From a bacterium (GTDB taxonomy: Bacteria > Bacteroidota > Ignavibacteria > SZUA-365): a stretch of DNA of 64,000 bases. Each line of letters opens with the position of its first letter. Positions within the stretch are counted from its first letter, which is position 1. The notes below the pieces were generated by a model. That model worked only from the letters and a program-made list of their open reading frames with translations. It was not told the origin of the DNA and searched no databases. A program made the translations under genes and the position numbers. Location of the stretch: contig JAHLLD010000001.1 of NCBI GenBank assembly GCA_020444325.1, positions 186,001 to 250,000 of the forward strand, written 5' to 3'. Of this stretch, positions 45,772-51,324 are shown one piece after another.

Positions 45772-48384
<2,613 letters not shown>

Positions 48385-48399
48385 ACTGATACCTCTATC

Positions 48400-49215
48400 C
48401 TAAAATTTCATTCCCCAGCGTCGGAACATCTCCGCCGCTTCCTCACGCTGCGCATCGCTGAGCGAAGAGGGCAGTGACAGATGGCTGCGAATGTACAGGT
48501 CACCCGTCGTGCCGCTCGCGGCATAGCCCATGCCCCGGAGGCGCAGCACGGATTCCGGCGGTCCGCCAGCGGGAATTTTCACATTTACTTTCTTTCCCTG
48601 TGGCGTGCGCACGCGAATGGTGCTTCCGAGCATCGCCTGGGCCAGATTGACCGGGATATCCACGTACGCGTCATTTCCCTTGCGCTTGAAAAAGGGATCG
48701 GACGTCGCCTGCGGCTCGCGTGGCTGGGCTCCGTGCGGAGTCCCGTGCGGTGCACCGTGCGTGGCGCCGCTTCGCGTGCCGGGACGGCCGCCGCCGGAGA
48801 AGTCGAAGTGGAAGCCGCCGGGATTCCGCCGCGTGCGACGCGACGAACGGGCTCCTCCACCAAAAAGTGACGAGAAAATATCATCCAGACTGCCGCCACC
48901 GAAACCCCAGGTGAATTCCTCGTTCGTACCGGACCGCTGTCCGCCGAAGCGGCTCATGAAATCCTCGTACGACATCGACCCCTGTCCCCCGCCCATACTG
49001 TAGCGGCGAAGCTCGTCATACTTCTTCCGCTTCGCGGGATCCTTGAGAACGTCATATGCTTCCCCGATCTCCTTGAAACGCGCTTCCGCACCCTCATCCC
49101 CCGGATGCGTATCCGGGTGATTCTCCTTCGCCAGCTTGCGGTACGCTTTCTTGATATCGTCCGCACTCGCGTTCTCACTTACCCCGAGTATCTGATAATA
49201 GTTTTTCTGTTCCAT
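48400..49215 (-). CDS. DnaJ-like co-chaperone (CbpA type)
   Basis: 271 residues from the ATG at 49215, which follows AAGGAG. J domain ~1-70 with the HPD motif ([10 protein letters not shown]), a Gly- and Phe-rich linker with an unusual run of His/Pro/Gly/Ala ([14 protein letters not shown], near 155), then the C-terminal beta domain [20 protein letters not shown], ending in RRWGMKF. The zinc-finger is absent, so this is the CbpA class, not DnaJ proper. It stimulates DnaK and sits directly upstream of clpB. Confidence 0.9.
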
Positions 49216-49310
49216 TCGTTTTTTCTCCTTGTCCGGCTGTCCGATCTCGTCTGAAATGCTCCGTTCTAAAGAACATCTTCGGTACAGCGGATTTCTCCGG
49301 ACTGTCACAA

Positions 49311-49394
49311 CTATTATACATGTCGCAATAGTCGTACCAGAGTGATAAATCGCTCAATTGCCGCCATTATGTCAGCCAATAGCGACATATTGGC
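49311..49394. promoter_or_regulatory. Divergent control region dnaJ-like/hsp20: inverted repeat
   Basis: This 336-base gap (49216-49551) holds a perfect inverted repeat GCCAATA-GCGACA-TATTGGC (49375-49394), a possible activator site, and on the minus strand a weaker box TATAATAG (49311-49318) with CTG 19 bases upstream that could start the dnaJ-like gene. Nearer dnaJ, GTTCTAAAGAAC (49263-49274) is a perfect small palindrome. Confidence 0.55.
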
Positions 49395-49480
49395 GCATGT
49401 CAACTGCAGAATTGTCATGCTGCATACTCAGATACGCCACAATGACGCTATTTCCTGAAGGAATGGCAGATTTTTCAAAT

Positions 49481-49496
49481 TGGCACAGCTTATGCA
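49481..49496 (+). promoter_or_regulatory. Candidate sigma-54 promoter of hsp20
   Basis: TGGCACAGCTTATGCA matches the RpoN consensus TGGCAC-N5-TTGC apart from one base in the -12 box; GG (49482-49483) and GC (49494-49495) are 12 bases apart as required. Expected start near 49507, 45 bases before the hsp20 ATG. An inverted repeat lies about 120 bases upstream, the normal place for an activator site. Confidence 0.6.
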
Positions 49497-49551
49497 GCAT
49501 TACTGGTGTACGAGCAAAACAACCACCAACCTTAACAGGAGGTATGATACT

Positions 49552-49989
49552 ATGACAGTCGTTCGTTGGAATCCCCTCAATGACATGATGAATCTGCAGC
49601 GTGAGTTCAACCGTGTATTCAATGGAATGGATACCAAGCGGCATGATGAGGATTATGAGTCCGCCGTGTGGAGTCCGATGGTTGACATCGTCGAAAACGA
49701 AGACGCATACACACTGACCTTTGACCTTCCGGGCATGAAGAAGGACAACATTCACATGAATTTCTCCGACGGTACGCTGAAGATCAGCGGTGAGCGTGCG
49801 GCGATCGAGGAGAGCAAGGACAACACCTGTCACCGCGTCGAGCGCGTGAGCGGAAAGTTCTATCGCTCCTTCAATTTCCCGACGCAGGTCAACTCCGACG
49901 GCATCAGCGCCCGCTATGAAGACGGCGTGCTCACCGTGAGCGTGCCGAAGGCCGAGGAAGTCAAGCCCCGTCAGATCTCCATCAACTAA
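49552..49989 (+). CDS. Small heat-shock protein (Hsp20/alpha-crystallin)
   Basis: 145 residues from the ATG at 49552, with AGGAGG 9 bases upstream. The alpha-crystallin domain runs about 42-135 (PMVDIVENEDAYTLTFDLPG, DGTLKISGERA, GKFYRSFNFP, ARYEDGVLTVSVPK) and the C-terminus ends with a shortened IxI-like element (RQISIN). An ATP-independent holdase that keeps unfolded proteins for DnaK/ClpB, whose partners are encoded next door. The promoter region looks sigma-54 controlled. A strong terminator follows at 50168. Confidence 0.94.
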   Translation: MTVVRWNPLNDMMNLQREFNRVFNGMDTKRHDEDYESAVWSPMVDIVENEDAYTLTFDLPGMKKDNIHMNFSDGTLKISGERAAIEESKDNTCHRVERVSGKFYRSFNFPTQVNSDGISARYEDGVLTVSVPKAEEVKPRQISIN

Positions 49990-50038
49990 GGGCTGAAACG
50001 TCCGCTTGACAACGGACAGGTTCGCGCAGCGAACAGGC

Positions 50039-50117
50039 TCGCACGACGATCACCTTCGCACGGCGATCACCTTCGCACAGCGATCACCTTCGCACGACGA
50101 TCACCTTCGCACGGCGA
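50039..50117. repeat. 17-bp tandem repeat CGCACGRCGATCACCTT
   Basis: Four and a half copies in tandem (50040-50056, 50057-50073, 50074-50090, 50091-50107, then a partial copy), differing by single bases. It lies in the gap between hsp20 and its terminator. There are no spacers, so it is not CRISPR. Function unknown. Confidence 0.85.
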
Positions 50118-50167
50118 GCCGGTAACAGCACACGATCACAACAGCACACAGATCCTGTGACCTCAGC

Positions 50168-50200
50168 AATGCCGCTTCCCTCCGGGGAGGCGGCATTTTT
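50168..50200 (+). terminator. Intrinsic terminator of hsp20
   Basis: Stem ATGCCGC/GCGGCAT with an inner CCC/GGG pairing, followed by TTTTTATTT. The gene lies 179 bases upstream; the tandem repeat is within the transcript. Confidence 0.85.
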
Positions 50201-50213
50201 ATTTCACAACTTC

Positions 50214-50289
50214 GCTGCTATTTCTCGGCCCGGCTGCTATTTCTCGGCCCGGCTGCTATTTCTCGGCCCGGCTGCTATTTCTCGGCCCG
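50214..50289. repeat. 19-bp tandem repeat containing a stop codon
   Basis: Four exact copies of GCTGCTATTTCTCGGCCCG (50214-50232, 50233-50251, 50252-50270, 50271-50289). The fourth copy is the 3-prime end of the AI-2E gene, reading RAEK-stop on the minus strand, so the downstream three are duplicates of a gene end. Confidence 0.95.
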
Positions 50290-51324
50290 GCTGCTCATGA
50301 GCACGGCGATGGGCCTGAGGCTCTCCACGTTCTCGAATATGATTTTGAGCGTCGACATCATCGGGACCGCAAGTATCATCCCCATGATGCCCCAGATCCA
50401 TCCCCAGAAGAACAGGGCGACGAGGACGAGGAGGGGACTCAGGTTCAGACTGAATTCCATGAGTTTTGGTTCGATGACGTTGCCCATGAGAAACTGTGTC
50501 GCTCCGAGAAGGATGAGCACGAGCAGCGGCGTGGCGATGCTGTCGAACTGCAGGAAGGAAATGAGCAGAGGGAATACTACCGAGATGGCGGATCCGATAT
50601 TGGGAATGAAATTCAGCAGAAATGTCAGGAAACCCCAGAGCAGCGCGAAGTCCACCCCGAGAATCAGGAGAATGACCGTCGTCAGCGCACCTGTCCCGAG
50701 ACTGATCAGCGTCTTGGTAATAAGGTACTGGCGCACGCGGAGATCGATTTTCTCTAACATCGAGGCCAGGCGCTCACTGTGACGCTCCGACATCGAGACA
50801 TGAAGCTTGCGTATCATTTCCCCGCTGCCGGCGAGAATGAAGAACATCAGCAGCACCACGACAATGAGATTGCCCAGGAGGGTGATGAAGGATCCTGCTC
50901 CGCTCGTAAGCATGGTGGTCACTGCGGAAACATCGACGATGTTGGTAAGACTGAAGCTTTCGGGTTTGATGTCATAGCGCGCCGCGAGAGAATCGAGCAT
51001 GGCCGTCGCATCATTCACCATTGTGGTCAGCTTCTGCTGATACTTCGGGAATTCCCGGACGAAGGATTCGAAACTGGAATAGATGATCGATGAGAGGCCG
51101 AAAAACAGTGCCAGGATGAACACCACGACCACCAGCAGGGCGATGGCGGAGGGAACGCGCTTCTTTTTCAGGTACAGGACGATCGGCTTGAAGATGTAGG
51201 AAAGAAATATCGCGAGGACGAAAGGCAGGATGACCGACTGCAGCTGATGCAGTACGATCCCCGCAACGAACACGACGATAATTCCCAGAAATACGGTAAT
51301 AATGCGCAGTTCTCTCTGTTCCAT
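50275..51324 (-). CDS. AI-2E family transporter (PerM/YdiK-like permease)
   Basis: 349 residues from the ATG at 51324, 5 bases after GGAGG; the longer frame is unsupported. Eight membrane helices of the AI-2E exporter family, with a long helical loop (~70-140, SSFESFVREFPKYQQKLTTM) and the late motif GFLTFLLNFIPNIGSAISVVFPLL near 240-265. Members move autoinducer-2, sodium/protons or small solutes; specificity cannot be told here. The 3-prime end lies in a 19-bp tandem repeat. Confidence 0.88.
   Translation of the reverse strand: MEQRELRIITVFLGIIVVFVAGIVLHQLQSVILPFVLAIFLSYIFKPIVLYLKKKRVPSAIALLVVVVFILALFFGLSSIIYSSFESFVREFPKYQQKLTTMVNDATAMLDSLAARYDIKPESFSLTNIVDVSAVTTMLTSGAGSFITLLGNLIVVVLLMFFILAGSGEMIRKLHVSMSERHSERLASMLEKIDLRVRQYLITKTLISLGTGALTTVILLILGVDFALLWGFLTFLLNFIPNIGSAISVVFPLLISFLQFDSIATPLLVLILLGATQFLMGNVIEPKLMEFSLNLSPLLVLVALFFWGWIWGIMGMILAVPMMSTLKIIFENVESLRPIAVLMSSRAEK

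Follow-up and report, generated by a model that had tools for sequence, protein, structure and literature searches.

A likely bidirectional sigma-54 control region with one dyad enhancer between hsp20 and dnaJ-clpB in a genome of the Ignavibacteria

The stretch of DNA analysed here, in the following called the window, comprises 64 kb of a genome of the Ignavibacteria (Bacteroidota) and contains an hsp20 gene that is transcribed divergently from a dnaJ-like gene and clpB. These three gene calls of a first-pass annotation were upheld by Pfam. The region has the following features:

45772-48384, minus strand: clpB, downstream of the dnaJ-like gene (Pfam Clp_N, AAA_2, ClpB_D2-small)
48400-49215, minus strand: dnaJ-like (CbpA-type) co-chaperone gene, divergent from hsp20 (PF00226 and PF01556)
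49324-49339, minus strand: putative sigma-54 -24/-12 promoter of dnaJ-clpB, TGGTACGACTATTGCG, predicted start near 49313, conserved in relatives
49362-49374, no strand: putative enhancer copy 1, CGCCATTATGTCA, centre 113 bp from the plus-strand -24 element and 29 bp from the minus-strand -24 element
49375-49394, no strand: perfect palindrome GCCAATA-N6-TATTGGC, present here and in 0 of 14 relatives
49383-49395, no strand: putative enhancer copy 2, CGACATATTGGCG, overlapping the palindrome, centre 92 bp (plus -24) and 50 bp (minus -24)
49435-49447, no strand: putative enhancer copy 3, CGCCACAATGACG, centre 40 bp (plus -24) and 102 bp (minus -24)
49456-49468, no strand: putative enhancer copy 4, TGAAGGAATGGCA, degenerate, with a single intact half site
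49481-49496, plus strand: putative sigma-54 -24/-12 promoter of hsp20, TGGCACAGCTTATGCA, predicted start near 49507, the sole TGGYACNNNNNNTGCW in the window
49552-49989, plus strand: hsp20, 145 aa, ATG at 49552, Hsp20/alpha-crystallin (PF00011, 8.8e-26 in Pfam)

The first-pass annotation had read 49481-49496 as a sigma-54 promoter of hsp20. A lone match of TGGYACNNNNNNTGCW in 64 kb, taken by itself, is poor evidence for such a promoter, the chance expectation being 0.48. It is the conservation of the box in relatives that makes the match acceptable as real. Orthologues of hsp20, taken from relatives within the genus up to others within the class, have a TTGGCAC...WTGMW box, for the most part 70-115 nt upstream of the start codon. 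The hsp20-side box was matched in 12 of 14 relatives, as compared to 0.11 expected from shuffling; for a broad -24/-12 pattern, about 0.01-0.02 matches per strand are expected by shuffling in the 250 nt before hsp20. The -12 element of many of the relatives' boxes is TGA and not TGC. The -24/-12 scoring matrix was hand-made and served for ranking only. As the box is also positioned as had been annotated, and as rpoN was found in the genome, the original reading of this arm holds. A sigma-70 or HrcA/CIRCE promoter for hsp20 was considered and rejected, since there is no sigma-70 match in 49200-49560 and no CIRCE element in the window, even when up to 2 mismatches are allowed; hrcA is present in the genome, though no CIRCE inverted repeat precedes hsp20. 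Two further observations concern the surroundings of this gene. The first bases past the predicted start (49509-49525) are partly conserved in relatives, roughly as GGGYGAANRAGCAAAAC, and might possibly constitute a 5'UTR element; no Rfam element matched the hsp20 upstream region or these positions. Behind hsp20, at 50020-50290, there are two short tandem repeat arrays, with units like cgatcaccttcgcacgg and four ctatttctcggcccggctg units.

For the opposite arm, no sigma-54 match had been recognized in the first pass, and it had been concluded that the two arms would respond differently. The first statement is wrong, as the minus strand has TGGTACGACTATTGC at 49325-49339, oriented towards dnaJ-clpB. 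Both boxes fit TGGCAC-N5-TTGCW, with GG and GC 10 nt apart, and the pattern TGGYAYRNNNNWTGC has only two sites in the 64 kb (0.61 expected), which are the plus and the minus box. The minus-strand box is kept in closer relatives, e.g. as TGGTACGGGATTTGCA or TGGTACGATGATTGCA, and the dnaJ-side box was matched in 11 of 12 relatives, with 0.13 expected from shuffling; the dnaJ-like gene is divergent beside hsp20 in relatives too. Alignment of relatives gives an identity of 0.75 and 0.65 for the boxes, as compared to 0.41 for the DNA that separates them. With this degree of conservation, both sigma-54 promoters are almost certainly genuine. The conclusion of a differential response falls as well, because dnaJ-clpB is preceded by a conserved sigma-54 box that stands in the same helical phase to the same upstream sites.

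Which of the elements between the boxes could be the activator site? It had been suggested that such a site lies about 120 bp upstream of the predicted hsp20 start, in the palindrome GCCAATA-N6-TATTGGC. A site at about this distance is supported, but the palindrome is not the conserved element. It is unique within the window and absent from all 14 relatives examined, and 28% of shuffled versions of the stretch contain some perfect 7-bp inverted repeat whose spacer is 3-20 nt long; the palindrome was therefore rejected as activator site. What is conserved is the 13-mer YGNCA-N3-TGNCR, of which the window holds three intact copies. In an unbiased count of every dyad of the form xxNxx-gap-inverse, for which 150 nt before each of 26 boxes of hsp20 and hsp20-dnaK were used, TGNCA-N3-TGNCA came first with 13 of the 26 promoters; in shuffles, no dyad was present in more than 3. 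The degenerate copy 4, which is overlapped by the call of a terminator-like hairpin, corresponds in the alignment to intact copies of some relatives, which lie about 19 bp from one box and 123 bp from the other. Strict dyads between the boxes were found in none of three relatives (L029, L030, L031) that retain both boxes. Counted over the whole genome, the dyad has 34 sites, as compared to 30 for the reversed control, i.e. there is no overall excess; the dyad is therefore informative only beside a sigma-54 box, and genome-wide counting alone was abandoned as a measure.

The distances between dyads and boxes are not random. In the hsp20 and hsp20-dnaK set, the distances from dyad centre to -24 element cluster with a period near 10.5 bp (R=0.74). 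In dnaK/groES promoters, mostly from other classes of distant Bacteroidota, the same phase is found with a peak at 10.5 bp (R=0.87, p ~5e-9; p ~3e-6 if only distinct distances are used), and these p-values are indicative only, since the genomes are related and not statistically independent. This second set was hand-picked, with the exclusion of five loci that have no convincing sigma-54 box (L317, L318, L324, L326, L341), and the last of these would be out of phase. The six distances found in the window (113, 92 and 40 on the plus side; 29, 50 and 102 on the minus side) without exception fall at 7.5-8.5 of 10.5, and the upstream activator sites thus share a DNA face with both promoters. The two -24 boxes are about 142 bp apart, and in 10 of 11 genomes the spacing is either 141-143 or 160-164 bp, two classes that differ by about two helical turns. 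As the dyad copies stand in one helical phase to both -24 boxes, one common enhancer would drive the two divergent promoters, and we regard it as very probable from these sequence patterns that the dyad serves as enhancer of both.

The combination of dyad and box is not restricted to this region. In the own genome, a strict dyad followed by a strong sigma-54 box occurs only at hsp20/dnaJ-clpB, at a second hsp20 gene immediately before dnaK, and at a single prophage-like site. The sigma-54 box of hsp20-dnaK is conserved in relatives, and with hsp20, dnaJ-clpB and hsp20-dnaK, several core chaperone loci of the genome have predicted sigma-54 promoters and would belong to a chaperone regulon under sigma-54 that recurs throughout the Bacteroidota. 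The prophage-like site (G000:C1:431018-431101) consists of a sigma-54 box and two dyads before a 60-aa ORF without Pfam match, with a Mu Gam-like gene nearby and an IS1595-type transposase downstream, and the mobile element may use the chaperone activator of its host. At groESL, no sigma-54 promoter was encountered, but CIRCE with a sigma-70-like box instead, and CIRCE lies upstream of groESL in most relatives checked. In three relatives (G006, G010, G011) dyads occur near this CIRCE/sigma-70 promoter, which is why the dyad-binding protein may act beyond sigma-54. The groESL upstream region of G006 contains TGCCATTATGTCATAAAATATGACATAATGGCA, two mirror-image dyads before the CIRCE/sigma-70 promoter, and lacks a convincing sigma-54 box in forward orientation. 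Sigma-54-like boxes are seen at groESL beside an EBP (enhancer-binding protein) cluster in Bacteroidota of other classes, and all 9 fetched dnaK genes have a sigma-54-like box with dyad elements (strict dyad in 8 of 9); in a wider dnaK sample, the occurrence is patchy. A very strict combined pattern was found in 6 of 197 genomes across the class and was dropped as a measure of spread, which it undercounts because many promoters read TGA and not TGCA at -12. Two Neomarinimicrobiota hsp20 loci (L058, L083) have TGGTACACTGATTGAA and TGGCATGGTGATTGAA at about -60, and sigma-54 control of hsp20 may therefore extend past the Bacteroidota.

An enhancer of this kind would need an EBP. About 14 EBPs (14 substantial activator domains) were found in the genome, most of them with receiver domains and at least one of the GAFTGA kind, and one of them stands out:

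G000:C5:94291-95445: P0001, sensor-less EBP, 384 aa, beside lptE

P0001 has an AAA+ domain and a Fis-type HTH, and no sensor domain. Orthologues are present in G001, G005, G007, G013, G036 (four EBPs) and G017 (two EBPs), in a comparison that drew on the best 30 EBP loci and covered G012 and G008 in part for P0001; a strong match was obtained in 118 of 118 Bacteroidota. In the relatives examined, lptE follows the P0001 type, and in several Bacteroidota genomes secG-groES-groEL does. Its recognition helix SERTLYRK is near-invariant, as would be expected if the dyad site is invariant, and it differs from that of most other own EBPs. A search for autoregulatory dyads upstream of the own EBP genes yielded nothing useful. 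On the grounds of co-occurrence and gene neighbourhood, we favour P0001 as the probable activator of the chaperone sigma-54 promoters. The same promoters and the same dyad enhancer could in principle be served by a different EBP, for instance by a response regulator of the NtrC type and its cognate kinase: the genome offers many receiver-containing candidates, and one further own EBP (L003) has part of the SERTLYRK helix. This appears unlikely, as no other EBP type occurs in every genome compared, judged from the EBP loci read, as the second EBP of G017 is of the receiver type and has no clear own orthologue, and as P0001 is the only EBP in G284, a complete genome.

Taken together, 49324-49496 is likely a bidirectional sigma-54 control region with one dyad enhancer that P0001 may well drive. 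In such a mechanism, the EBP would bind the dyads as oligomerising dimers and reach, by looping, the RpoN-polymerase poised at the one box or the other; ATP hydrolysis by the EBP would then fire hsp20 and dnaJ-clpB together. The same EBP, most likely P0001, would also act on the hsp20-dnaK operon at its separate locus, whereas groESL would remain under HrcA/CIRCE. P0001 would be controlled not by a receiver domain but by a partner protein, perhaps free chaperone. Heat or misfolding is the signal that we consider somewhat better than an even guess.

Could the dyad belong to something other than a sigma-54 activator? A regulator other than an EBP might bind it and act at chaperone promoters irrespective of their sigma class, in which case sigma-54 activation would have another source, and the dyads near the groESL promoters of the three relatives described above would fit this idea. 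We regard it as improbable, as dyads are phased to -24 boxes across different genes and classes, and as pairs of dyad and sigma-54 box in the own genome are found only at chaperone genes and the one prophage-like site. That the hsp20 -24/-12 match is due to chance, with an ordinary sigma-70, HrcA or ECF promoter in its place, is extremely improbable, for although a single match in 64 kb arises in 38% of shuffles, the boxes of both arms are conserved in relatives and neither sigma-70 nor CIRCE matches accompany them.

A small heat-shock gene with a sigma-54 promoter is known from E. coli, where ibpB has a sigma-32 plus a sigma-54 promoter; there, sigma-54 supplements sigma-32, which is the difference to the hsp20 gene described here. 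PspF resembles P0001 in combining AAA+ and Fis-type HTH without an N-terminal sensor domain, and this makes the partner-protein control of P0001 plausible. The two nevertheless differ in the genes and sites they would act on, and P0001 scores 272 bits, below the curated pspF cut-off of 443.6 bits. In Chlamydia, the hrcA-grpE-dnaK operon likewise has a sigma-54 promoter, but in tandem with a sigma-66 promoter in a pair that includes an HrcA-repressed promoter, and with AtoC of a two-component pair as activator (PMC8762339).

The closest parallel is Flavobacterium psychrophilum of the same phylum, in which sigma-54 (SM4) -24/-12 starts were mapped at groESL, dnaK, grpE-dnaJ, htpG, lon and clpB (PMC9723704); in our genome, the control of chaperone genes by sigma-54 is read from sequence alone. 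A 2025 COG-enrichment survey predicts DnaK, DnaJ, GrpE, GroESL and IbpA under sigma-54 in Bacteroidota and Planctomycetota (PMC12316311), and in the passages considered here neither an enhancer element for chaperone genes nor its phasing nor a dedicated EBP was found; its text makes no mention of Ignavibacteria. Sigma-54 control of chaperones itself is thus already known in the Bacteroidota. What appears to be new, within the open-access literature, are the enhancer element, the phasing, the divergent layout and the activator assignment: the SM4 table of F. psychrophilum contains neither hsp20 nor a divergent hsp20/dnaJ-clpB layout, the enhancer is unassigned there, and groESL is under sigma-54 in that organism as opposed to CIRCE in ours (PMC9723704). 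The region between hsp20 and dnaJ-clpB offers, within a short distance, a natural example of two sigma-54 promoters that share an enhancer. We put forward more tentatively, at somewhat less than even odds, that the P0001 type is the dedicated protein-quality-control activator of the Bacteroidota, which would bind TGNCA-N3-TGNCA, fire chaperones via sigma-54, probably be restrained by chaperones, and play the role that sigma-32 has in proteobacteria. A conserved enhancer with a single EBP would, if true, explain phylum-wide chaperone coordination. In F. psychrophilum, the authors left the activators unassigned, with three PF00158 proteins as candidates (PMC9723704), and its genome resembles the P0001 locus in that a sigma-54 regulator gene is followed by lptE, few genes before groESL by locus tag. 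The conserved, phased enhancer and the universal sensor-less EBP make this activator question directly testable in cultured Bacteroidota.
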